Shown piece after piece: positions 20,425-32,670 of a DNA stretch of 57,307 nt (its first letter is position 1; each line of letters opens with the position of its first letter). The notes under the pieces were generated by a model. That model had not been told where the DNA came from. It saw only the letters and a list, made by a program, of their open reading frames with translations, and did no database searches. This stretch comes from Burkholderiales bacterium (GTDB lineage Bacteria > Pseudomonadota > Gammaproteobacteria > Burkholderiales > Casimicrobiaceae), in contig JADYZP010000019.1 of NCBI GenBank assembly GCA_020853025.1, forward strand, positions 1 to 57,307, written 5' to 3'. The translations under genes and the position numbers were made by a program.

Positions 20425-21645
20425 ATGGCCTCGCCGACGATACCGCTCGCCTCGCTGTGGGTGAGCCCATTCCGACCGTTCTGCGTGCTGGGCGTGGCCT
20501 ACGGCGTCGCGCTGATGGCGGCGTGGATCGTCTTGAGGCTGGGCGTCTTCGCCGGTACCGCGGGATCGCCGGTCACGCAGGGTTGGCACGGCCACGAAAT
20601 GCTCTATGGCTTCGCAGGCGCGATCGTCTGTGCGATCGCACTGACGGCGCTGCCGGGCTGGGCCGGGACGCGCGAGATCCGCGGCGCACCGCTGGCGGGC
20701 TTGGTCGCGCTCTGGATTGTCGCGCGCATGGCGTTCTGGTGGCGCGATGCGCTGCCGACGTGGCTCGCCGTGGCAGGTGTCGTGACCTTGTGGGTGGTAC
20801 TCGCGGCGATCCTCGCGTGGCAGCTCGCGCGCGCCGCCCGCCGCGCCTGCCTCTGGATCATCGTCGTGCTCGGCGCAATGGTCGCAGGCGATGCCCTGTT
20901 CATGATCGGGGATGCCGCCACAGGCATCCTGATGGGAGTCTACGCGCTGCTGCTGCTCTACGCGCTGGTCGGCGGTGTCTTCACGCCGGTGTTCACCGGC
21001 AATCACCTGCGCGCGACCGGACGCGGCGAGCAGCCGCCCTCCGTAAAGTCGCTCGACGCGGCGTCGATCGGCGCGATCGTCGTGCTGGCGTTCGTCGACC
21101 TGTCAGGGGCGCCGCTCGCCTGGCGGGCGGCTGCCGCGTTCGCCGCCTGCGCGCTCAACGGTGCGCGCTTGTGGCGCTGGCAAGGTTGGAGGGTGCTCGA
21201 CGCGCCGCTGCTGTGGACGCTGCACGCGGGATACGCGTGGATGGTCGTCGCTTTGGCGTTGTTGGCGCTGGGCGATCTGGGGAGCACGGGTGCCGCCAGG
21301 GCCTGGCTGCATGCGTTCACCGTCGGCGCGCTCGGCTCCGCGATGATCGGCCTCATGACGCGCGTGGCGCTCCGGCATACCGGCCGCCCGCTGACGCCGT
21401 CGCCTGCGGTCGTTGCCGCGCACCTGCTGGTCCAGGCCGCGGCGCTCGCTCGCGTCGGAGCCGCGTTCGCCGACGGCGACACCGCATGGGTCGTCGCCGC
21501 GGGGTCCGCCTGGCTTGCCGCGTTCGCGATCTATCTCGCGAACTTTGGCCCGATCCTCGTCCGGCCGAGTCTCCCGCGCATCGTTGCCGGTCCGCTCGAC
21601 GCCGACCCGCCAACAATGACCACGCACTTTCCCGACCGCTCGTGA
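20425..21645 (+). CDS. nnrS: NnrS family membrane protein
   Basis: 406 residues with about 12 hydrophobic helices. NnrS signatures are present: WHGHEMLYGF near residue 54, TPVFTGNHLR and HAFTVGALGSAMIGLMTRVALRHTGRPL. NnrS is a haem- and copper-containing inner-membrane protein linked to nitric oxide stress and denitrification. It is divergent from the GntR regulator. The fusion gene follows 7 bp downstream and is probably cotranscribed, although no functional link between NnrS and CoA chemistry is obvious. Confidence 0.88.
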   Translation: MASPTIPLASLWVSPFRPFCVLGVAYGVALMAAWIVLRLGVFAGTAGSPVTQGWHGHEMLYGFAGAIVCAIALTALPGWAGTREIRGAPLAGLVALWIVARMAFWWRDALPTWLAVAGVVTLWVVLAAILAWQLARAARRACLWIIVVLGAMVAGDALFMIGDAATGILMGVYALLLLYALVGGVFTPVFTGNHLRATGRGEQPPSVKSLDAASIGAIVVLAFVDLSGAPLAWRAAAAFAACALNGARLWRWQGWRVLDAPLLWTLHAGYAWMVVALALLALGDLGSTGAARAWLHAFTVGALGSAMIGLMTRVALRHTGRPLTPSPAVVAAHLLVQAAALARVGAAFADGDTAWVVAAGSAWLAAFAIYLANFGPILVRPSLPRIVAGPLDADPPTMTTHFPDRS

Positions 21646-21652
21646 GGACCCC

Positions 21653-23668
21653 TTGAACACCCGCTACGCGAATCCCCTCATCGCCGCGCCGACCCGTCCG
21701 CTGCCGCGCCACGTCGCGATCATCGGCGCCGGATCGATCGGTCCCGATATCGGCTATTACCTGAAAAGTGCGCTGCCCGATGTGGCGTTGACGCTGGTCG
21801 ACGTCGCGCAAGCGCCGATCGATGCGGCGCTGAAGCGCTTCGCCGACTATGCGCAGAAGGCTGTCACGCGCGGCAAGATGCAAGCGCGGGAGGCGGCGGC
21901 CGTGACGCGCGACGTGCACGGCACCACCGACTACGACACGATTCGCGGGTGCGACTGGGTGATCGAGGCGGCGACCGAGAACCTCTCGCTGAAGCGCCGG
22001 ATCTTCGCGGACGTCGAAGCGCGAGTCCACGACGACGCGATCGTCACGTCGAACACGAGCTCGCTTCCCGCCGCGCGCATCTTCGCCGAGATGCGACATC
22101 CCGGACGGGCGACGGTAACGCACTTCTTCGCACCCGCGTGGCGCAATCCCGCCGTCGAGGTCATCGACTGGCCGGGGGCCGCCACCGGTCTGGTCGATCA
22201 CCTGCGGCGCGTCTTCTGCGTCACCGGCAAGCTGCCGCTGGTCACGTCGGACGCGGTGTGCTTCATGCTCGACCGGGTCTTCGACAACTGGTGCAACGAG
22301 TCGGCGCGGCTGCTCGATCGGGCGACGGCTGCCGAGGTCGACAGCGTCGCCGGCGAGTTCGTGCACGCCGGCCCGTTTTTTGTGCTCAACCTCGCACGCG
22401 GCAATCCGATCATCGTCGAGACCAACACGCTGCAGGCCGCCGAAGAGGGCGAGCATTACCGGCCCGCGCGCATATTCCGCTCGGTCGATCACTGGGCGAC
22501 CGTGGCGCCGGGGACGCGGATCGACGTCGCGCCGCAGCAGGCGTCCGCGATCCGCGACCGCCTGCTCGGCGTGCTGTTCTCGCAGGCGGTCGACATCCTC
22601 GACCGCGGCATCGGTAGCGAAGCGGATCTCGATCTGGGTTGCCGCATCGCGTTGGGCTTCAAGCGCGGGCCGCTCGAGCTTCTGCGCGCAACCGGCGACG
22701 CCGAAGCAACACGCATACTCGAACGCTTCGCAAGCGAGCGTCACGGCATGCCGATGCCGAAACGCGCGCTGCCCGAGTACCAGCACGGGCTGCGCCACAT
22801 CCTCGTCGACGACGTCGACGGCGTGAAGGTCGTCACGCTGCGCCGCCCCGAAGCGATGAACGCGCTGCACGACGAAATGACCGACGAGATCCTCGGCGTC
22901 ATCCGGCGCCACGAGCACGATGACGCGGTGCGCGGCTTCGTGATCACCGGCTACGGGACGAAGATGTTCTGCGCTGGCGGCGACATCGGAAAGTTCCCGT
23001 CGATGCTGGGGGACGCCCAAGCGTCGGCCCAGTACGCGCGCGACTGCTCGCGGCTGCTGGTCCACCTCGACGCGATGACCAAGCCGGTGGTCGCGGCGTT
23101 GAACGGCAGCGCGCTGGGCGGCGGCTTCGAGCTTGCGATGCGCTGCCGTGCGATCGTCGCAATGCGCGGTGCGTCGATGCAGTTTCCCGAGATCACGCTC
23201 GGCATCCTGCCGGGAATCGGCGCGATGGTCGTGCCGTATCGCCGCTGGCCGAACGCCGCCGCGGTATTCCACGGCATGCTGCGGCAGGCCGAGACGCTCA
23301 CCGCCGTGCGCGCACACGAACTCGGCATCGTCACCGCGCTCGCCGACGATCCGCAATCGTTGATCGCCGCCGCGGTCGCGCAGGTCCGCTCGCTCGCGCG
23401 GCACCCGGGGGCGTTGGCGCCGGGTGCCGTCGCGATACCCGACCTGACGCCGATCGCGCCGGTGGCCGCCAACGGCATGGCGCTTTCCACGACCGCGATC
23501 GCGCTGATGGACGAGGCGATCCGCGAGGCGGCCGCCGCACCGACGCTCGCCGCAGCGCTCGAGGTCGGCTACCGCGCCTTCGGCCGCAGCGCCTGCACCG
23601 CTGCCGCCCGCGAGGGCATCGAGGCCTTCGGCGAACGCCGGCGCCCCGATTTCACGCAGACGGGCTGA
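21653..23668 (+). CDS. 3-Hydroxyacyl-CoA dehydrogenase / enoyl-CoA hydratase fusion
   Basis: 671 residues; TTG start with GAGGA about 5 bases upstream. Residues 20-380 are a 3-hydroxyacyl-CoA dehydrogenase: IGAGSIG nucleotide loop at 24-30, EAATE near 105-109, catalytic-type His157 in VTHFFAPA, and a helical domain. Residues 385-665 are a crotonase: FCAGGDIGKF oxyanion loop, GGGFELAM and FPEITLG carrying both catalytic Glu positions of enoyl-CoA hydratase. The domain order is the reverse of FadB and like that of archaeal crotonyl-CoA hydratase/dehydrogenases. It supplies the two steps between the acyl-CoA dehydrogenase and thiolase of the neighbouring operon. Its 3' end overlaps the convergent qhpE by 17 bp. 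Confidence 0.9.
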   Translation: MNTRYANPLIAAPTRPLPRHVAIIGAGSIGPDIGYYLKSALPDVALTLVDVAQAPIDAALKRFADYAQKAVTRGKMQAREAAAVTRDVHGTTDYDTIRGCDWVIEAATENLSLKRRIFADVEARVHDDAIVTSNTSSLPAARIFAEMRHPGRATVTHFFAPAWRNPAVEVIDWPGAATGLVDHLRRVFCVTGKLPLVTSDAVCFMLDRVFDNWCNESARLLDRATAAEVDSVAGEFVHAGPFFVLNLARGNPIIVETNTLQAAEEGEHYRPARIFRSVDHWATVAPGTRIDVAPQQASAIRDRLLGVLFSQAVDILDRGIGSEADLDLGCRIALGFKRGPLELLRATGDAEATRILERFASERHGMPMPKRALPEYQHGLRHILVDDVDGVKVVTLRRPEAMNALHDEMTDEILGVIRRHEHDDAVRGFVITGYGTKMFCAGGDIGKFPSMLGDAQASAQYARDCSRLLVHLDAMTKPVVAALNGSALGGGFELAMRCRAIVAMRGASMQFPEITLGILPGIGAMVVPYRRWPNAAAVFHGMLRQAETLTAVRAHELGIVTALADDPQSLIAAAVAQVRSLARHPGALAPGAVAIPDLTPIAPVAANGMALSTTAIALMDEAIREAAAAPTLAAALEVGYRAFGRSACTAAAREGIEAFGERRRPDFTQTG

Positions 23669-24290
23669 GCGTCTCGAGACGGCGCCGCGCGAGGTGCACG
23701 AGCGCGCGCGCGCACGCAAACGAATGCCCGTTGAGGTTCGACGCGCCCGGCCAAGACCCCAAATCACGCGGCGCACCGCATGCCTTGAGATGCAGGTCGT
23801 CGCATTCGCGCACGTCTTCGGCTGCGAGCGAAACATCGGCCGTGACCGCGTGCACCCCGGGCAGCGACGCCGGCAGCCAGCCGGGTCGATCGGGGTGCGC
23901 CGAGGCGACGATGACGCAACCGGCGTCGAGCGCCGCACTGCAGGCTGCCGCGACGGCCTGCGCGCCCGGACCGGGAGGCACGGCGAGACTCAGGTTGACG
24001 AAGTCGCAATCCGCCCCCGCAGCGCGCAGGATGCCGCGCGCGACCAGCGACGGCCAGGTCGTGCCTTCATCGCCGAAGACGCGTACCGCGTAGATCGCCG
24101 CGTCGGGAAATGCGCTGCGGATGACGCCGGCGACGGCGGTGCCGTGACCGATCACATCGCGGAAGTCGTCGTCCTCGTGAACGACGCCATCCGCCGTCGC
24201 GTAGATCCGGCAGCCGTCGACCGTCCCTCGCACGTGCGAGTGCCAGGCGTTGACGCCGGTGTCGACGATGCCGATGCGCAGCGGTCTCAT
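23652..24290 (-). CDS. qhpE: QhpE-like subtilisin-family protease (leader peptidase of QHNDH gamma subunit)
   Basis: 212 residues, short for family S8 and without a signal peptide or propeptide, so cytoplasmic. The triad is Asp10 (IVDTGVN), His49 (GHGTAVAG) and Ser190 (GHSFACARALVHL). The usual oxyanion Asn loop reads SAHPD, so it is atypical, as described for QhpE. QhpE removes the leader from the gamma subunit after thioether formation. The gene is the last of the qhp run and overlaps the ABC transporter gene by 4 bases (ATGA). Context and size make this assignment strong. Confidence 0.85.
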   Translation of the reverse strand: MRPLRIGIVDTGVNAWHSHVRGTVDGCRIYATADGVVHEDDDFRDVIGHGTAVAGVIRSAFPDAAIYAVRVFGDEGTTWPSLVARGILRAAGADCDFVNLSLAVPPGPGAQAVAAACSAALDAGCVIVASAHPDRPGWLPASLPGVHAVTADVSLAAEDVRECDDLHLKACGAPRDLGSWPGASNLNGHSFACARALVHLARRRLETLSPSA

Positions 24291-26020
24291 CGTGTCGGCC
24301 TCGCGTTCGCCACCGGCAGTGCAAAGGCTTCGGCGAACGACATGAGCTCGCCGGGGGCGACGGTTGCGAGACGTCCTTCACGGAGGAACAGGATGCGGTC
24401 GATGTCCTGCAGGCCCACGGGCCGGTGCGAGATCAGGATCGCGGTCCGTTCGGGGAACGCCTGCCAGAGATGTCGCCTGATCCGGACTTCGGTGTCGAGG
24501 TCGAGCGCCGAGAACGCCTCATCGAGGACGAGGATGCGCGGATCGCGCAGGAAGAGCCGCGCGAGCCCGAGTCGCTGCCGCTGGCCGTCGGACAGGGCGA
24601 GCCCGCGACCGCCGATGACGGTGGCGTAGCCTTCGGGAAGCGCATCGATGAACGCATCGGCCTCGGCCAGCGCGGCCGCACGCGCGACGTCGACGTGCGT
24701 CGCGTGCGGATTGCCGTAGCGCAGGTTCTCTTCGATCGACGCGTGCAGCAGGTAGGGTTCGGCGCCGGCATAGCCGATCCCGGCCGGTGCCGACGTCCGC
24801 CGCGGCCGAGCCGCCGGGCGGCCCTCGATGAGCACCCGCCCGCCGGTGGGCGCACGCACACCGAACAGCAGGTGGACCAGCGTGGACTTGCCGGCACCCG
24901 AGGCGCCGAAGAGCGCGATGCGCTCGCCGCGCGCGACTGCGAGATCGACACCGCGCAACACCGGAGGCTTGCCGGCGTAGGCGAAGGAAACATCGTCCAT
25001 TTCGATCGCGTTAGCGTGAGGTGCAGCACGGTTTGCGTGAGCGGGCGGATCGGCATCGGTGTCGACATCGCCTTGTCCAAGGACCTCGGTCACGCGCGCG
25101 AGACTCACGCGCGCTTCCTGCAGGTGGCGGACGAGCCCGAGCAGTCCCTGCGCCGGTGCGAACAGGCGGCCCTGGTAGAGGACGAACGCGACAAAGGTCC
25201 CGAGCGTGATGGTTCCGGATTCGAGCAGCCGGCCGCCGATTAAGTAGATCCAGGCGAGCGCGAGCGTCAGCACGAGCCCCGGAACGCCGCTCGACACCGA
25301 GTCGATGAGCTGGAAACGCACGACCTCACGCTTGAGGCGCGCATTGGCGGCGTCGAGCGTCGCCGCCTCGTCGCGTCCGGTACCGTGCAGGCGGATCGCG
25401 CGCAACGCGGCCAGACGCTCGGAAAGAAAGTGCGAGAGTTCGACCATCGCGTCGCGGATACGCTTAGTCCCCGCCTCGACCGGCATGCGAAACGCATTGG
25501 TGGTGACGAGTGCGAGCCCGAGTCCCGCGAAACTCCACAGCGCGAGCACCGGCGAGAGATTGAAGGTGATCACCGCGGCCACCGCGAGAAACAGGACGTT
25601 CTGCAGCGCGCCGAGCAGGCCGTCGACAAGGAGGCCCTGGATGCGCGGAATATCGCTGCCGAAACGGGTCAGCAGGTCGCCGTGGCGATACGGCTCGATC
25701 GCGGCCAATGGGCCGTCCGTACAGCGCGCGAAAAGCGCCGAGCGCAGGCCGGCGAGCACATCGGCGGATAGCCGTACATGCACACGACCGGACAGCGTGG
25801 CCAGTGCCAGGTCGGCGAGGGCGAGTGCGACGAGTGCCGCGGCGATCCACGGAATCGACGAGTAGTCGTGGTGCGTCGCGACGGCGTCGACAAAAGCCAT
25901 GCCGAGCAGCGGCGTGGAGAGCGAGACCGCGGCACCTGCCAGGCCGAGCACGAAGACGACGGCAAGCGCGCCTTTGTGTTCCGAAAGATGCGGCAGGTAG
26001 CGCCGCAGGAAGATCAGCAC
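24287..26020 (-). CDS. qhpF: QhpF-like ABC exporter (fused permease and ATPase)
   Basis: 577 residues; GTG start overlapping the upstream U32 gene by 7 bases. The N-terminal half has six membrane helices of the ABC exporter type. The ATPase half has Walker A in FGASGAGKST, the signature LSDGQRQRLGLARL, Walker B ILVLDEAFSALD and the H-loop ISHRP. In known qhp loci this exporter carries the modified gamma subunit across the inner membrane to join the alpha and beta subunits. The half-transporter layout implies a homodimer. Confidence 0.86.
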   Translation of the reverse strand: MLIFLRRYLPHLSEHKGALAVVFVLGLAGAAVSLSTPLLGMAFVDAVATHHDYSSIPWIAAALVALALADLALATLSGRVHVRLSADVLAGLRSALFARCTDGPLAAIEPYRHGDLLTRFGSDIPRIQGLLVDGLLGALQNVLFLAVAAVITFNLSPVLALWSFAGLGLALVTTNAFRMPVEAGTKRIRDAMVELSHFLSERLAALRAIRLHGTGRDEAATLDAANARLKREVVRFQLIDSVSSGVPGLVLTLALAWIYLIGGRLLESGTITLGTFVAFVLYQGRLFAPAQGLLGLVRHLQEARVSLARVTEVLGQGDVDTDADPPAHANRAAPHANAIEMDDVSFAYAGKPPVLRGVDLAVARGERIALFGASGAGKSTLVHLLFGVRAPTGGRVLIEGRPAARPRRTSAPAGIGYAGAEPYLLHASIEENLRYGNPHATHVDVARAAALAEADAFIDALPEGYATVIGGRGLALSDGQRQRLGLARLFLRDPRILVLDEAFSALDLDTEVRIRRHLWQAFPERTAILISHRPVGLQDIDRILFLREGRLATVAPGELMSFAEAFALPVANARPTR

Positions 26021-27072
26021 GATTCGCCCGGCGCCGTCGAGAGCGTGGGGAGTGCTTCGACGCGGATAGGCACGACGCGCCGGCTTCCGGCCCGTGCGGC
26101 GGATGGCGACTTCTGGCGCGGCTGCGGGCGCGCATCGGTCCAGACGTCAGGGTAGTAGCACAGGTGCGCGTTCTCGCAGAGCTCCGGTGCGCCGCGCTCG
26201 GCGACGACGGCATCGCGTATGGTCTCGCGCGTGGCGCCGTCCTCGGCGAGTCGCAGCGCCAGTGCGGCCAGGCGGACCGATCCCAGCTTGCGCGCGAGCG
26301 GCGCCTCGCGGCCGACGACCTTGAGGCTCGCGACGCCGGCGTGCTTGAGCCGCGTCAACGCGCAGAGGCCGCAGGGTCCGAGCATGTAGCCGCGACTGGT
26401 CTGGCAGCCGCAGTTGTTGAGCGTCCATTTCCAGAACGCGTAACGCTCGTCCAGGCGCCCCTGCGCGTGACCGACCTGGTCGTCGATGCAGTAGGGACGG
26501 AAGGCGTGCGTCGTCGAGCAAGTGCCTTCCTCGAACGCGCAGCCGTCGTTCAACAAGAAGACTTCGCATTCGAGCCCCGGGATCATCGTCTGCTCGATTT
26601 CGGCGAGCGTCATGTGGCGCGGCAGGATCACGCGCGACACCCCCAGGCTCCTGTAGAACGCCGCAGCCCCCGGGTTGCGGCAGGTCGCGAGGCTCGACAC
26701 GTGCACGCGGTCCGCCAAGCCTCCGTCACGCAGCGCGAGGATGAGCTCCATCTCCGCGACGATCAGCGCGTTCACTCCCATCGCGTCGACCAGCATGCGA
26801 CCGAACTCGACCAGATGCGGGATCGCGCCTGCCGGATACGACGCCGCATTGAGTGTCACGAACACCGGAGCATCGCCCGCCAGACGGACGATTCGTTCGA
26901 GGTCGGACAGACCGGATACACCCGCGGATCGGGCGCTTCGGCGGTGAACCGCGGCCTGGCCAAACGCCGCCTCCCAGCCGGGCGGCGTCACGCCGCAATA
27001 GAACTCGCCCGCCCCCGCCTCGAGCAACGGCAACACCTCGTCGGCGCCCTTGAGTGGCGCGAGGATTTTCAC
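26014..27072 (-). CDS. U32-family protein, UbiU-like; candidate O2-independent hydroxylase subunit
   Basis: 352 residues from GTG 27072, which overlaps the preceding gene as GTGA. It begins KILAPLKGADEV and GAGEFYCGV like U32 proteins. The family signature is near residues 168-191 (ECEVFLLNDGC, then GTC, HAF), and the C-terminal GPCGLCAL...HAGVASLKVVGRE matches the end of the U32 core. Cys178 and Cys185 have the spacing of the first two iron-sulfur ligands of UbiU; further candidates are Cys195, 221, 223, 234 and 237. UbiU/UbiV hydroxylate ubiquinone precursors without oxygen. Their presence inside a qhp operon, with no qhpG in the window, suggests a role in hydroxylating the cofactor tryptophan. 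That role is inferred; a peptidase label would be misleading. Confidence 0.75.
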   Translation of the reverse strand: MKILAPLKGADEVLPLLEAGAGEFYCGVTPPGWEAAFGQAAVHRRSARSAGVSGLSDLERIVRLAGDAPVFVTLNAASYPAGAIPHLVEFGRMLVDAMGVNALIVAEMELILALRDGGLADRVHVSSLATCRNPGAAAFYRSLGVSRVILPRHMTLAEIEQTMIPGLECEVFLLNDGCAFEEGTCSTTHAFRPYCIDDQVGHAQGRLDERYAFWKWTLNNCGCQTSRGYMLGPCGLCALTRLKHAGVASLKVVGREAPLARKLGSVRLAALALRLAEDGATRETIRDAVVAERGAPELCENAHLCYYPDVWTDARPQPRQKSPSAARAGSRRVVPIRVEALPTLSTAPGESC

Positions 27073-27908
27073 GCTGCCGCCATCGCGTGGATGACCAGTC
27101 GATCCGCGTGCCGCAACCACGTGCGCATCGCCTGCTGCGGCGGCTCGTAGAACAGCGTGTTGCCTGCACGCCAGTGCGGCAACGCCGTGTCCTCGCGACG
27201 GACGGACAGCGGCTTGCCCTGGCACGGAGCGGGACAGGGGTCGGCAAAGACATGCGCGAAACCGCCGCCGTCCGGATACAGCGCCGCCTTCAGCGGACAG
27301 CCGCGTCCCGATGCGGCGTAGGTGAACGGGAAGTGCAGTGTGCGGCGCATCGGTATCTCGCCGCATTCGGCGCCGTCGCCCAGGTAGCCACCCTCGAAGT
27401 CGGCGTCGGTTTCGATCGCCTCGACGCCCTGCTCCTGGAGCAAAACGCGCAACCTCGCGAAGCGCGATCCGTCGCGCCTGGCGGCGCCGCCGGGCGCGTC
27501 GCGATACGCGCGCGGATCACGCAGCGACCGGTTGACCAGACGACCGGCACGACGCGGCAGGCAGCGATGCCGTTCACGAAGCAGTTCGAGCACGCCCCAG
27601 TCGTTGAAGACGACCGCCGGACGCCAGCCTCTCGCCGTCAGTCCGTCGAGCAACCGGTCCACGTTCAGCAGTCCCGCCGGGGACAGGAGCGGCGTGGCCA
27701 GCGTCGCTTCGAGACCGCGATCGCGGGCGGCGACGCAATACGCATTCGCCTCGTCGAGATCGGGTAGCCGGTCCTCGCAGAACTCCGAGCCGAAGTACAG
27801 CGCGACGGTGCACCCCTGCGGAAGCAGGTCGCGCCACCCGGCCGGGCACGCCTCGCGCGCGTCGGCCGGAACGTCGCCGGGTGTCGTCAGTCGCAGTCCG
27901 TATTCCAC
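27069..27908 (-). CDS. UbiV-like U32-type partner protein
   Basis: 279 residues; GTG start. It looks like the TIM-barrel part of UbiV: ALYFGSEFCEDR aligns with UbiV's YLGEAVCSKR region, AVVFNDWGVLEL with its SDLGV strand, and FPFTYAASGRGC with its LPLAYSARC. Cysteines 44, 204, 225 and 229 reproduce the spacing style of UbiV's four [4Fe-4S] ligands (39, 180, 193, 197), including the last C-x3-C. The gene overlaps the UbiU-like gene by 4 bases, so the two products probably form a heterodimer. It lies between the qhp structural genes and qhpF. The family is recognised from memory of UbiV, not from a search. Confidence 0.68.
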   Translation of the reverse strand: MEYGLRLTTPGDVPADAREACPAGWRDLLPQGCTVALYFGSEFCEDRLPDLDEANAYCVAARDRGLEATLATPLLSPAGLLNVDRLLDGLTARGWRPAVVFNDWGVLELLRERHRCLPRRAGRLVNRSLRDPRAYRDAPGGAARRDGSRFARLRVLLQEQGVEAIETDADFEGGYLGDGAECGEIPMRRTLHFPFTYAASGRGCPLKAALYPDGGGFAHVFADPCPAPCQGKPLSVRREDTALPHWRAGNTLFYEPPQQAMRTWLRHADRLVIHAMAAA

Positions 27909-28039: not shown

Positions 28040-29059
28040 TCATTTTTGGAAGCGGATCTTGCGCACGTCCATGCCGTCGGACGTCATCTGCAGCACCTTG
28101 ATCGGCTTCAGCGTCCGGGCGTCGAAGACCGTCAGCGTCGACCCTCCCCCGCCGACGTATATTTTCTTTCCGTCGGACGAGACGTTCACTCCGTAGGACG
28201 TGCCCTCCCCGAGAGGCACCGACGCGCCGTAGGTCTTGTTGACGAGGTCGATGACGGTCAGGTCGTCCATCACCGCATAGGCTTGCTTGCGGTCGGGCGC
28301 GAGCACCACCGAGTAGGCCATCGCCGGCTCGCCCTTGAGCACGATGTCGTCGATGGCGCCGGTGCGCTGATCGACGAGCATCACCCCCATGTACGTCGGC
28401 GTGTAGTAGGGCATGCTGGCGATGCCGCCGTTGTCGAACGCATAGTCCCAGAAAGGCAGCATGTTCACGCCGCGGTCGAACATCGGAATGGTTGCGACAA
28501 TCCGCATATCGGCGCCGGTCGTGTCGATCTTGTAGAGGTCCTGGCCAAAGGCAAGGATCTCCTTGCCATCGCGGACGCCGACCAGGTGCGCGACGCCCCA
28601 AGGTACCTCGACGCTGCGCACGATCTTCCCGGTGTCGAGCTCGAACTGGGCGACGACCGGCTTGCCGACGACGGCCTCGCCGTTTTGTGTCCGGCGCGAC
28701 ATGAATCCGCCGTAGCCGGTACGGCCGTCCTGCGCGAGTACGAAGCCGAACATCACCCGGTCCCAGCCGTCGTTGCTCACATCCGCGGTCGAGACAACGC
28801 GATTGCGTGCAAGGTCGACCTTGTGCACGAGGTGTCTGTTGGTCGTCACGTACATGAACTTGCGGTCCGGCGTGACGTCGGCTTCGCGCGTCGCGCCCTT
28901 GATCGGGATGTCGGCGACGATGGTGTCGGTGTCGCCGTCGATCACCTGGATCACGCCGTAGCCCAGATGGTAGTAGCGGTCGCCGGCGGCGGCGGGAGGC
29001 GCCGCAGCGACGCACAGGACTGCGGCGAGCGCAGGCAACAGCGAATGGAGCCGTATCAT
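28040..29059 (-). CDS. qhpB: Quinohemoprotein amine dehydrogenase beta subunit (beta-propeller)
   Basis: 339 residues with a clear signal peptide (LLPALAAVLCVAAAPPAAAG). The mature part is a seven-bladed propeller of YVTN type, with repeated DRKFMYVTTN, LVGVRDGKEILAF and SDGKKIYVGGGGS blades. In QHNDH this periplasmic subunit packs against alpha and gamma and helps form the active site around the CTQ cofactor. GGAGG precedes ATG 29059 closely, and the gene starts 9 bp after qhpC. Confidence 0.9.
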   Translation of the reverse strand: MIRLHSLLPALAAVLCVAAAPPAAAGDRYYHLGYGVIQVIDGDTDTIVADIPIKGATREADVTPDRKFMYVTTNRHLVHKVDLARNRVVSTADVSNDGWDRVMFGFVLAQDGRTGYGGFMSRRTQNGEAVVGKPVVAQFELDTGKIVRSVEVPWGVAHLVGVRDGKEILAFGQDLYKIDTTGADMRIVATIPMFDRGVNMLPFWDYAFDNGGIASMPYYTPTYMGVMLVDQRTGAIDDIVLKGEPAMAYSVVLAPDRKQAYAVMDDLTVIDLVNKTYGASVPLGEGTSYGVNVSSDGKKIYVGGGGSTLTVFDARTLKPIKVLQMTSDGMDVRKIRFQK

Positions 29060-29068
29060 GCTGCCCTC

Positions 29069-29392
29069 CTAGTCGTACTTGAGTTTGCGCCAGTCGCGCG
29101 CGACGTTCGGGCACTGCTCGTCGAAATCGCGGTGGTTGGTGAGCCCGTCGGGCATCTGCGCGGGCCACCAGCAGTCGCCGACGCAACCGTGAAAGTCGCG
29201 CGCCGAAGCCTGGCAGTTGCCGACCGGGTAGGTCGGCCGCGGGTTTGTCTCCCAGCCGGTATCGAAGATCGTCGTGCAGCCCTGCGGCATCCTCAGCTCT
29301 GCCTGCGCTTCGGCGGATCGCTGCTCGCCGTCGGCCAGGCGTTCGATCGCCTTCGCCTTTTCGTTCAGTGCTTCGATGAGCTTTTTTTTCAT
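29069..29392 (-). CDS. qhpC: Quinohemoprotein amine dehydrogenase gamma subunit precursor (CTQ- and thioether-bearing peptide)
   Basis: 107 residues: a charged leader (about 1-35) and a core starting near GCTTIFD. Counting from ATG 29392, the crosslink spacings of the Paracoccus protein are all reproduced: Cys39-Glu48 (9), Cys60-Asp66 (6), Cys74-Asp82 (8) and Cys70-Trp76 (6). The last pair would become cysteine tryptophylquinone; a WWPAQ motif follows Cys74. Cys94 is an extra fifth cysteine. The core should receive three Cys-to-carboxylate-side-chain thioethers from QhpD, lose its leader to QhpE and be exported by QhpF. AGGA precedes the start, and qhpD ends 10 bp upstream. Confidence 0.93.
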   Translation of the reverse strand: MKKKLIEALNEKAKAIERLADGEQRSAEAQAELRMPQGCTTIFDTGWETNPRPTYPVGNCQASARDFHGCVGDCWWPAQMPDGLTNHRDFDEQCPNVARDWRKLKYD

Positions 29393-29402
29393 CGTGCGTT
29401 CC

Positions 29403-30830
29403 TCATGAGGATGCATCGTCATCGGCGCGCCGCGACAGAAAGGCGAGCACCGGGTGGTCGGGGTCGGCGCGCAACGTGCCGTAGGTGCGGATACCGAGCT
29501 CGATCCAGCGCCGGATGAAATCGCAGGAACCGCCCTGTGCCAGGCCGAGTACCGACTCGCGCTGGTGGTTTTCGTAGTGGCAGCCGCCGGCGCACAGGCT
29601 GCGCGCCCAGCACGAAGCGCACGCGTCCTCGCGCGGGGCAGCCTGCTCGTCGAGGCAGGCCCTGACCTTCGCGTGGTCGATGCCCGCGTCGAGGTCGCCG
29701 ATGCGGAAGTCGCCGTTGCCGGCGAAGCGGTGGCAGAGGAAGAACGCACCTTCGGCATCCATCGCGACGTAGCCGAGTCCGGCGCCGCACGGCACGGGCT
29801 TGACCTGCCCGAGATGGAGCCTCGCGAGCAGGTCGAGCAGGTTCGAAAACGGCAGCACGCGTCCGCGCGCTGCGTCGTCGACGAAACGCTGCGCGAGGCG
29901 CGAGAAACCTGCGAACAGCGCCTCGTCCTGCTCGGCTGTGGGCAGCAGCGTCGCGCTGACAGGGCTGGTCGGCGCAATTCCCACTTCGACGAAGCCCAGA
30001 TCCAGCAAATGCTCGAATACCTCGGGAATACGCGCCCACTGATCCGGCTTGAGCGTCACCCGCGCGGCAGGACGCCTGCCGGTGCGCTCGCGCAATTGCC
30101 GCACGCCTTCGACAACGTCGGCGTAGCTGCCGCGCCGCTTGCCGCCGACGTACGGGCGATTCGCATCGTGGATATCCGGTGGCCCGTCGATGCTGACCGA
30201 CACACCGATTCGATGTTCGGCCAGGAAATCGAGAGCCTCGGGCGTGAAGCGCGTGCCATTGGTCGTCATCGAGACGACGAGCTTCTTGCCCCGCGCGGCG
30301 GCTGCCGCTTCCCCCTCGAGGACGGCGGCCTCGAGCGCCGGAAAATTCAGCAAGGGCTCGCCGCCGAAGAGCACCAGCGTCACGGTATTCCGATCGCCCG
30401 AGGCTTCGACCAGATGGCGCGCGGCGCGGGCGGCGAGTTCAGCGCGCATCACGCGCGATGGGCCGCCGTAGGCGCCGCCGCCAGCGTAGCAGTAGGTGCA
30501 GCGGAGGTTGCAGGCCTGCGCGGCTTCGAGCACCAGCGTTGCCATTGGAACCGCAGCCGGGTCGATCGGCGCGCGCGGCGAACGACGCAGCCACGCCGAC
30601 GGAACGAGCAGCTGTGCATCGGCGAGCGCGTCCAGGACCTCGCGATCGGTCTCCGGCACGTCGTCGAGGTCGATCGCCTCGCGCTGCCGCCAGCGGGCGA
30701 TGACGTCGCGCGTCGCGCTGTCGATGGCGAACAGGCTCGCCTGGTCGGCGCCGAAGAGCAGCATCTCGCCTTTCGCGCCGGCGGGCGGCGCGAACACGCG
30801 ATGGTCCGCAAGCGTCCAGGTCTGCGTCAC
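29403..30830 (-). CDS. qhpD: Radical SAM/SPASM thioether-forming maturase QhpD
   Basis: 475 residues; GTG start overlapping the qhpA stop as GTGA. The radical SAM cluster motif is Cys107, Cys111 and Cys114 (CNLRCTYC), followed by GGEPLLN and SIDGP strands. The C-terminal SPASM domain carries CGAG, LCHRF, CASCWARSLCAGGC and further cysteines for two auxiliary [4Fe-4S] clusters. QhpD joins cysteine sulfurs to the beta or gamma methylene of Asp or Glu in the gamma subunit. Its position next to qhpC supports the assignment. Confidence 0.92.
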   Translation of the reverse strand: MTQTWTLADHRVFAPPAGAKGEMLLFGADQASLFAIDSATRDVIARWRQREAIDLDDVPETDREVLDALADAQLLVPSAWLRRSPRAPIDPAAVPMATLVLEAAQACNLRCTYCYAGGGAYGGPSRVMRAELAARAARHLVEASGDRNTVTLVLFGGEPLLNFPALEAAVLEGEAAAAARGKKLVVSMTTNGTRFTPEALDFLAEHRIGVSVSIDGPPDIHDANRPYVGGKRRGSYADVVEGVRQLRERTGRRPAARVTLKPDQWARIPEVFEHLLDLGFVEVGIAPTSPVSATLLPTAEQDEALFAGFSRLAQRFVDDAARGRVLPFSNLLDLLARLHLGQVKPVPCGAGLGYVAMDAEGAFFLCHRFAGNGDFRIGDLDAGIDHAKVRACLDEQAAPREDACASCWARSLCAGGCHYENHQRESVLGLAQGGSCDFIRRWIELGIRTYGTLRADPDHPVLAFLSRRADDDASS

Positions 30831-32389
30831 CGGATCCTCGCGATGTAGTCGGGCATGGTAACGGCCAGCCTGGCTTGCGCGTCGTAGGTCCGACCGCCGC
30901 GCTTGTAGCGTGCGAGGACCTTGACCAGTCCGCTGTTCTCACCCTGGTAGCTGCGATTGGGGTTGACGGCGTAGTCGACCATCGGCAGGTAGGCGCCGTT
31001 GGGTCTGATCGTGCCGAGCCACGTCATGTCGTCGTCGCCGGGGCGCGTTTTCAGCTCTGCCAGCCGGAACGTCGCGGGGACCGGCCCCAACGCGACAGCC
31101 ACCGCGTTCTTGCCGATGCCGCGCTTCGCATACGCAATCGCCTCGAACTGCACGCCCTCCGCCGGATAGTGCACGCCTCCGGAAAGCCGCGCGCGCCCAA
31201 CCTCCGGCACGATAGCGATGCGATCGATGCCCGGCGCGAGCGTGACGACCCCCGCGTCGACGCCCTTGACCGAAACCCTCGCCGTGCCGAGCGTCGGCGC
31301 GTTGTTGACGACGGTCAGCTCGAGTGCTTCCGGTCCGATCCGCCTGACACCCTGCACCTTGACCGCACCGCCTGCGAACGTGATGTCGGACGGCTTCGCA
31401 TCGGGCAGATTGATGCCTTCGACGGTGACCGTTGTCTTTTCCCCGGCAAGCAGGAACCCGGGCACGATCCGCGCGACCTTCGGCTGGTCGCCGACGCGAA
31501 TCCACTTCGAACGCGAAGTGCGGAAGTCCGGCGCCGGCAGGTGCCACTCGCCGCTGATCTCGTCGTTGGCTGCGATGAACGCACCCTTCGTGGCGAAGCC
31601 GTTGTTGCTCGTCCGCGTCCGCAGCGCGTACCCGCCGTAGAGCGTTCCCTCGCCGGCAAAGCTCTCGGCGGTACCGTCGGAGTAGGTGACGCTGCCGGAA
31701 AGCTTCAACTCGGCATTGCCCGCATCGGTGATCTGCGCACGGCCGCGATAGGTGCCACGTCCGGGCGCATCGCCGAACACGGCCCACGCGCCTTCGAGCT
31801 TCGTCGGCGGCGCCGTCCACGCCTTGCCATAGGGCAGCTTTTTCGCGAAATACGCGAGCGCGGCGTCGGCCTCGGCGAGCCAGCGCATCTCGCGCATCTG
31901 GTAGACGACCGTCGGCACGATATAGAGATGGAAATCCCGATGCTTCATCCACAATTCCGGCGTCATTCGATACGAGTGGATCTTGCCGGCCGTATGGCAA
32001 CGCACGCAGGTCGCGTAGACCTTCTCCTCTTCCTTGCCGGCGGGTGCCTCGACCTGCTGCGAGTTGTGCCACAGCGAGAGGTAGGCCACCTGCGCCTGCT
32101 CGTCGGGGGTCAGGCCTTGCGTCGCGGCAAGCTCCTTCAGCAACCGGTCCATGTCGCCTGGACCCATCGGCATGTCGTGCAGCCGGTGCATGCGGTCGAC
32201 GATGACCGTCCATTCCTCCGGTGTCGTCCGCAGGTCCTCGACCTGCGGAATCCGGCCTTCCGCCGTCGGTACGTGGCAGCTACCGCACTTGCTGCGGACG
32301 AGCGAGTCGCGGTCAAAGGTCCACGCGTCGCCGCTGGCGGCGGCGAGTGCCATGCCGAGCGCCAGCGGTGCCATCCAGTCGTGTCGCAT
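30827..32389 (-). CDS. qhpA: Quinohemoprotein amine dehydrogenase alpha subunit (dihaem cytochrome c)
   Basis: 520 residues from ATG 32389, with GGAG 8 bases upstream. A signal peptide (MAPLALGMALAAASG) precedes a cytochrome domain with two haem c sites: CGSCH at 35-39 and CVRCH at 128-132. The rest is three beta-rich domains, including IPT/TIG-like segments, as in the known four-domain alpha subunit. In the periplasm it takes electrons from the CTQ cofactor and passes them to a cytochrome c or azurin. The amine substrate cannot be predicted. Confidence 0.93.
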   Translation of the reverse strand: MRHDWMAPLALGMALAAASGDAWTFDRDSLVRSKCGSCHVPTAEGRIPQVEDLRTTPEEWTVIVDRMHRLHDMPMGPGDMDRLLKELAATQGLTPDEQAQVAYLSLWHNSQQVEAPAGKEEEKVYATCVRCHTAGKIHSYRMTPELWMKHRDFHLYIVPTVVYQMREMRWLAEADAALAYFAKKLPYGKAWTAPPTKLEGAWAVFGDAPGRGTYRGRAQITDAGNAELKLSGSVTYSDGTAESFAGEGTLYGGYALRTRTSNNGFATKGAFIAANDEISGEWHLPAPDFRTSRSKWIRVGDQPKVARIVPGFLLAGEKTTVTVEGINLPDAKPSDITFAGGAVKVQGVRRIGPEALELTVVNNAPTLGTARVSVKGVDAGVVTLAPGIDRIAIVPEVGRARLSGGVHYPAEGVQFEAIAYAKRGIGKNAVAVALGPVPATFRLAELKTRPGDDDMTWLGTIRPNGAYLPMVDYAVNPNRSYQGENSGLVKVLARYKRGGRTYDAQARLAVTMPDYIARIR

Positions 32390-32415
32390 CCGGGATCTCC
32401 GTTGGAACAGGCGGC

Positions 32416-32670
32416 TCACACCGCCAGCATCACGGACTTGGTCTCCGTGAACATGTCGAACGCGGCGTGTGCCGCACGCACCGCGCGATCGATGTCCGCC
32501 GCTCCACCCGCGGGCTCCCGCGCGAAGACCTCGCCGTCGGCGGGATTGCGGACCTCGAGCTGCTTGCCGTCGGCGGCGTCGACCCAGTCGGCGCCGATCA
32601 GCATTTCTTGCGGTGCCGCGAGAAAGCGGGTCGCGGCTTCACCGACCGGGTAGCGGGTTTTCATGTCCAT
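32416..32670 (-). pseudogene. Internally deleted aldehyde dehydrogenase (N-terminus joined to C-terminus)
   Basis: An 84-codon open frame with GGAG before ATG 32670. Residues 1-72 match the N-terminus of an NAD-dependent aldehyde dehydrogenase (LIGADWVDAADGKQLEVRNPADGEVF, then IDRAVRAAHAAFD). The next residues, MFTETKSVMLAV, are the typical last residues of the same family. About 400 residues, including the catalytic Cys and the NAD fold, are missing, with the frame preserved. It sits 26 bp before qhpA. An aldehyde dehydrogenase would naturally oxidise the aldehyde made by QHNDH, so this is probably an ancestral operon member lost by deletion. Confidence 0.8.

Follow-up and report, generated by a model that had tools for sequence, protein, structure and literature searches.

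A quinohemoprotein amine dehydrogenase (QHNDH) operon that lacks the gene for the flavin monooxygenase QhpG raises the question of how the cysteine tryptophylquinone (CTQ) of the γ-subunit QhpC obtains its two hydroxyl oxygens, both of which QhpG draws from O2 according to the relevant part of PMC7876137. Such an operon lies in the window, the 57,307-nucleotide stretch analysed here (contig JADYZP010000019.1 of a Burkholderiales bacterium of the family Casimicrobiaceae). Between qhpB and qhpF it carries two U32-type genes, for which we coined the names qhpU and qhpV. Genome comparisons indicate that the QhpU-QhpV pair is found in place of QhpG in a wide range of qhp operons, and that it likely dihydroxylates Trp76 of QhpC without O2.

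The window holds a complete qhp operon for QHNDH. All genes named in the initial annotation, namely qhpA, qhpD, qhpC, qhpB, qhpF, qhpE and two overlapping genes between qhpB and qhpF, are present as open frames on the minus strand, tightly spaced in the order qhpA-D-C-B-V-U-F-E from position 32419 down to 23652, the end of qhpV overlapping the start of qhpU by four bases (GTGA). QhpC has the residues for three thioether bonds and CTQ, and its gene stands beside qhpA, qhpB, qhpD, qhpE and qhpF. Alignment, using what we take to be the mature numbering of the P. putida protein, places the crosslinks at C39-E48, C60-D66 and C74-D82 and the CTQ pair at C70-W76; Trp76 thus aligns at the CTQ tryptophan position (CWW), as initially annotated. 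These eight residues are conserved at 34/34 loci and at a further 15/15, genome G1242 (see below) included, and are kept in QhpC of both the U32 type and the QhpG type. One therefore expects the same cofactor, whose two hydroxyl oxygens must come from some source.

An extra cysteine (C94 in the window) occurs in most U32-type QhpC and is lacking in most QhpC of the QhpG branch. It was tried and rejected as a mark of the U32 mechanism, since two loci (L103 and L135) have the pair without this cysteine and L153, with a flavoprotein, has it. QhpC of the pair-bearing genomes G345 and G1242 (L135 being the G1242 locus) lacks the cysteine, which together with its presence in L153 indicates that C94 tracks lineage rather than the pair.

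Mutual exclusion of qhpG and the pair among qhpC genomes had been set beforehand as the test of replacement. QhpC (NF037958) was sought in six genome sets (2/369, 5/399, 7/199, 11/195, 1/248 and 6/248 positive), giving 31 distinct qhpC genomes, with the window genome present in the first two sets (369 and 399). Scoring with NF049967 for QhpG (cut-off 240 bits) and a profile of our own (A1) for QhpU revealed QhpU only in 22 genomes, QhpG only in eight, both in none and neither in one; QhpG exceeded the cut-off in 0/4, 3/10 and 5/17 genomes of the three tested batches. QhpU orthologues score 291-551 bits, compared to at most 72 bits for the other U32 proteins of the eight QhpG genomes (limit 1e-15). 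In the genome with neither (G1562), the qhp genes lie on a contig of 9.9 kb that breaks off inside qhpD, so that the part where its closest relatives hold qhpG is absent. All 11 qhpC genomes of the Geobacter-class sample (195 genomes) are of the QhpU type. Moreover, eight genomes found through QhpD (G001-G005, G007, G008 and G011) have QhpU in 8/8 cases and QhpG over the cut-off in 0/8. A QhpG-like match of 180.8 bits in G008 was rejected as QhpG because it scores best with the halogenase model CmlS.

The initial annotation had also stated that qhpG is missing from the locus. In the window assembly, 93.9% complete, NF049967 matched nothing at 1e-20, and the best match of a QhpG protein covered 72 residues with an E-value of 0.0015. 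With no qhpG found elsewhere in this genome and no genome carrying both, the proposal that the pair replaces QhpG is supported. Two genomes, G345 and G1242, point to complementation within the QhpG branch: their qhp genes belong to the QhpG branch, and they lack QhpG and carry the pair instead.

Among plasmids, 26 records contain qhpC; 11 were read, of which 11/11 encode a QhpG-type flavoprotein by our own profile and 0/11 carry the pair. A plasmid search with QhpU returned ten records with partial matches only (at most 57% coverage at 29% identity). The flavoprotein of L153 is weak, with 59.9 bits against NF049967 (cut-off 240); at this locus, from Novosphingobium sp. RL4 (L153:11541-12899), the divergent QhpG-like flavoprotein is encoded between qhpB and qhpF, where U32-type loci have the pair. 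Two further plasmids carry relatives of these genes. On a Mesorhizobium plasmid (L066:6884-9647), a gene for a QhpD-like radical S-adenosylmethionine (SAM) protein overlaps a QhpG-like flavin monooxygenase gene near genes for a multicopper oxidase, a tyrosinase and a cytochrome P460, with no match to qhpA, qhpB or qhpC; it is possibly another quinone-type maturation cluster. An Azoarcus sp. KH32C plasmid (L161:9935-11269), not among the qhpC plasmids, has a QhpG relative (50% identity) near phenylphosphate carboxylase genes.

The pair is present in bacteria of at least three phyla, Geobacter relatives included. A scan of genome contigs with the window QhpD gave 60 loci, of which 13 were used (L004-L016), the other 47 lacking matches to QhpA, QhpB, QhpC and the U32 pair alike. 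Eleven loci span qhpD to qhpF, and in all 11 the two U32 genes lie between qhpB and qhpF; their hosts are Beta- and Gammaproteobacteria, a Geobacter, a Sericytochromatia bacterium and three Bacillales. Of the remaining loci, L015 is a contig fragment carrying only qhpA and a partial qhpD, and L013 has a QhpD-like gene and no other qhp gene; it served as tree outgroup, and its genome (G013) was included in the QhpG and QhpU tests. Fifteen further loci from genomes found with QhpC likewise have the pair between qhpB and qhpF. Altogether, this placement holds for 27/29 U32-type loci inspected up to the pair, the window included, and its recurrence in 26 other loci is not chance; a chance arrangement or a mis-read frame is ruled out by the layout that the 27 loci share. 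The two exceptions are G1242, where the pair lies behind a qhpF-qhpE fusion (a single 779-residue frame, L135:10810-13149), and G345, in which one contig carries qhpC and the pair at a distance of 31 kb. In G345, a gene for 3-deoxy-D-arabino-heptulosonate 7-phosphate (DAHP) synthase, the first step towards prephenate, stands 1.7 kb from the pair on the opposite strand, which may be chance. A protein search for named isolates such as Aromatoleum found none among the 120 matches listed.

What kind of proteins are these? QhpU belongs to the U32 family: it matches Pfam Peptidase_U32 (PF01136) with 87.4 bits (cut-off 22.4, 1.2e-24), and the best Foldseek match of its predicted model is a U32 protein. 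It falls below the cut-off of the UbiU equivalog NF047963 (44 bits, cut-off 440), and its second NCBIfam match is TrhP, whose family name reads prephenate-dependent. Profile alignment with UbiU by hhalign yielded a probability of 99.2% (the UbiU and UbiV comparison profiles hold two sequences each); by sequence comparison, QhpU is a distant UbiU homologue. The U32 signature and UbiU-like first cysteine spacing noted initially were thus confirmed, C178-X6-C185 having the same spacing as in UbiU. Seven cysteines (C178, C185, C195, C234, C237, C299 and C305) are invariant in 55/55 aligned sequences, and a cysteine at 221 and/or 223 is also found in 55/55. Searches of solved-structure sequences with QhpU gave no relevant match.

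Relatives of QhpU are named "U32 family peptidase" or "putative protease" in databases, names that would fit a peptidase processing QhpC. Such a role is hardly credible and was rejected: the leader protease QhpE is kept at U32-type loci whose contig extends far enough (L005 and L118 end before qhpE) and is even fused to QhpF in G1242, the invariant cysteines suit clusters, and the missing activity is that of a hydroxylase, not of a protease.

The homology to UbiU, and the fact that true UbiU and UbiV also form a pair, might instead point to a ubiquinone-type or RNA-type U32 hydroxylase that is merely located in the operon. We consider this very improbable. Contig C33 of the window genome (L149:8286-10697) encodes a UbiU (544 bits, cut-off 440) and a UbiV (378 bits, cut-off 275) apart from the pair, followed by a frame that resembles UbiT by eye, and a ubiquinone role of the pair was rejected for this reason. 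Furthermore, QhpU and QhpV each form their own clade in the U32 tree, QhpU is absent from 8/8 qhpG genomes, and the pair accompanies qhpC in Bacillaceae and in relatives of Geobacter, which are not known to make ubiquinone. The initial description of a UbiU/UbiV-like pair therefore stands as a likeness, in the homology of QhpU and the cysteine layout, but the two proteins are not UbiU and UbiV themselves.

A second full-length QhpU-like protein (189-200 bits) is encoded away from qhp in four Geobacter-class genomes. In the three stretches inspected (L143:9748-10707, L144 and L145) it is accompanied by no QhpV match, and in L143 its gene comes after an apparent precorrin-type methyltransferase gene, as judged by eye.

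QhpV is more cryptic. It has no Pfam or NCBIfam match at 1e-3, two distant orthologues have no Pfam match at 0.01, and the NCBIfam scan found no match to the UbiV equivalog NF047965 for the window protein or three orthologues. Profile comparison with the two-sequence UbiU profile gave no support for a relation, and solved-structure sequence searches gave no relevant match. Nevertheless, C44, C204, C225 and C229 are invariant in 59/59 aligned sequences, so that each partner carries at least four invariant cysteines in a cluster-type pattern, and the predicted model (predicted local distance difference test, pLDDT, 85.7) has the U32 protein 5d88 as top Foldseek match. The cysteine pattern and the predicted fold may link QhpV to U32 proteins and UbiV.

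We propose the following order of events. QhpD would first crosslink QhpC by thioether bonds, as known for QhpD and assumed here. A QhpU-QhpV heterodimer with [4Fe-4S] clusters on the invariant cysteines would take up crosslinked QhpC and carry out two oxygen transfers to Trp76, at C7 and C6, to give 6,7-dihydroxy-Trp. The oxygen donor would be organic, probably prephenate, as for other U32 hydroxylases in the accounts that PMC11574389 and PMC10470549 give, the NCBIfam name of TrhP pointing the same way. Leader removal by QhpE and peptide export by QhpF would follow, and the QhpA hemes would help to oxidise the catechol to CTQ. The complex, its Fe-S content, the oxygen donor, the reaction and its anoxic use are all what we infer from these comparisons.

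Alternatively, the pair might act in qhp maturation but not in Trp hydroxylation, as an electron-transfer or folding partner of QhpD, with the hydroxyls coming from O2 by an unrecognised enzyme or by autocatalysis, as assumed for other tryptophylquinone proteins. Passages of PMC7876137 lend this some substance: QhpG also aids QhpD crosslinking by holding QhpC, so that a replacement might inherit only that role, and an autocatalytic first hydroxylation is discussed for methylamine dehydrogenase (MADH) and LodA/GoxA. In addition, the conserved cysteines of QhpU exceed the four of UbiU. Against it, the only frames of at least 100 residues common to all 13 representative U32-type loci (of the 29) are A, B, C, D, V, U and F/E. 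The 11/11 Geobacter-class qhpC genomes of the U32 type also argue against it, as an O2-dependent step is unlikely with their life style. Finally, hydroxylation is the chemistry known for U32 Fe-S proteins, with ubiquinone precursors and RNA as the characterised substrates in the account of PMC11574389. On balance, we judge a mere partner of QhpD improbable and hydroxylation of Trp76 by QhpU-QhpV the likely function.

Several points weigh against this assignment. The hhalign comparison of QhpV with UbiV gave a probability of 1%, that is, no detectable sequence similarity; the UbiV likeness initially claimed for QhpV is thus supported by the four cysteines and the predicted fold, not by sequence. 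The structural match of QhpV to a U32 protein is tied with other triosephosphate isomerase (TIM) barrels, and the QhpU model has a pLDDT below 50 over residues 178-200, the region of candidate cluster ligands. The genome-wide search was made for QhpU only, and the pair of G345 lies outside the operon. Pair-bearing genomes also encode other relatives of flavin monooxygenases that score under the QhpG cut-off, an unrecognised O2-dependent enzyme in these genomes is conceivable, and several hosts, for example Bacillaceae, are also able to live with O2. The six QhpC scans were centred on the window genome (two) or on genomes found with the window QhpD (four, two of them with the pair), which favours the window branch, and the proportions of the two types are therefore not those in nature. 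Moreover, few independent swaps lie behind the exclusion, one in the QhpD tree and two to three in the QhpD+QhpA trees, so that the Fisher value of 1.7e-7 overstates it.

In the QhpD tree, which omits L140 (a short QhpD piece), the qhpG loci group in a single clade (96/96) and G345 and G1242 branch immediately outside it, corresponding to one swap. The QhpD+QhpA tree with more plasmid loci, which omits L005 (no qhpA), L140, L157 and L159, has three label changes, two of them forced by well-supported branches; a second version that also leaves out the weak row L153 has two, both forced. The trees thus point to perhaps one to three exchanges between the types, not thirty. The G345 and G1242 pairs are sisters in both the QhpU and the QhpV part of the U32 tree, so that the pair may have been transferred. 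The qhpG branch has U32-type loci to either side, and outgroup rooting, with very long branches, places the U32 type as the older one, a hint, suggestive only, that it preceded the qhpG type. A bolder scenario, which we advance tentatively and hold for somewhat doubtful, is that CTQ was first made without oxygen: QhpU-QhpV would be the original peptidyl-tryptophan dihydroxylase, a second QhpU Fe-S site supporting two successive oxygen transfers from prephenate, and in an aerobic branch of Proteobacteria the O2-dependent flavoenzyme QhpG would later have replaced the pair, the two being exchanged more than once.

The features of the operon are collected in Table 1. A promoter and terminator scan found no more signals than in shuffled sequence. 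Next to the operon (20425-23668) are nnrS (PF05940, 1.4e-81), as initially annotated, and a gene for a fused 3-hydroxyacyl-CoA dehydrogenase/enoyl-CoA hydratase.

Table 1. Genes of the qhp operon in the window, with the basis of each assignment (aa, amino acids; ABC, ATP-binding cassette).
Gene	Product	Coordinates	Strand	Basis
qhpA	diheme alpha subunit	30827..32419	-	TIGR03908 280 bits, over cut-off; PF09098, PF09100
qhpD	radical SAM crosslinking enzyme	29403..30830	-	TIGR03906 best NCBIfam match, 346 bits, below cut-off 453
qhpC	gamma-subunit precursor	29069..29392	-	NF037958 122 bits, cut-off 50
qhpB	beta subunit	28040..29059	-	TIGR03907 111 bits, below cut-off
qhpV	cryptic U32-type protein, 279 aa, likely hydroxylase Fe-S subunit	27069..27908	-	no Pfam match; invariant C44, C204, C225, C229; model
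qhpU	U32 protein, 352 aa, likely catalytic partner	26014..27072	-	PF01136 1.2e-24; hhalign to UbiU; invariant Cys
qhpF	ABC exporter	24287..26020	-	PF00664, PF00005
qhpE	subtilisin-like leader protease	23652..24290	-	NF049966 122 bits, below cut-off 165; PF00082

U32 hydroxylases and QHNDH maturation are each already known; joining both, with a protein as substrate, may be new. To our knowledge, the described routes to Trp-derived quinone cofactors use O2 or its products. In the open library searched, we found no paper that by title or listed abstract joins U32 proteins with CTQ or amine dehydrogenase; Schmitt et al. 2019 (PMID 31138631), which reportedly deals with the anaerobic use of two QHNDHs in Aromatoleum aromaticum EbN1, may already discuss the idea, and a 2024 paper in the Proceedings of the National Academy of Sciences (PNAS) is said to treat an organic oxygen donor. 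If our proposal is true, anaerobes can build CTQ, which would account for amine dehydrogenase operons in relatives of Geobacter and for the anaerobic use reported from Aromatoleum. A protein would be a new substrate for U32 enzymes, and QhpU-QhpV the first U32 hydroxylase known to act on one. As QhpC is small and gene-encoded, with a ready mass-spectrometric readout, the pair, provided it does this job, would offer a tractable system for O2-free C-H hydroxylation.

Of known systems, the O2-independent ubiquinone hydroxylases UbiU-UbiV come close to QhpU-QhpV. Both are adjacent pairs of U32-type proteins; UbiU shares the C-X6-C and X38 spacing of the window QhpU, UbiV shares the C-Xn-C-Xn-C-X3-C layout of QhpV, and both pairs would serve quinone making by ring hydroxylation, a role that for QhpU-QhpV is proposed here. 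However, UbiU and QhpU lie in separate clades, with four ligands in UbiU and eight conserved cysteines in QhpU, and QhpU-QhpV is linked to a peptide substrate gene, with no UbiT-like protein among the eight operon genes in Pfam and NCBIfam scans. The peptidyl tryptophan dihydroxylase QhpG would share the job of the pair, following QhpD and modifying the same Trp of QhpC, but has an unrelated flavin adenine dinucleotide (FAD) fold that uses O2, and is not over the cut-off in any QhpU-positive genome. The hydroxylases TrhP and RlhA have the U32 family and hydroxylation in common with QhpU, whereas their substrates are RNA, and they are single proteins outside the QhpU clade. The MauG, LodB and GoxB systems, like the proposed pair, complete a Trp-derived quinone in a dehydrogenase or oxidase, but are heme or flavin enzymes acting on monohydroxylated Trp, and the passages of PMC7876137 that bear on them describe no U32 protein.

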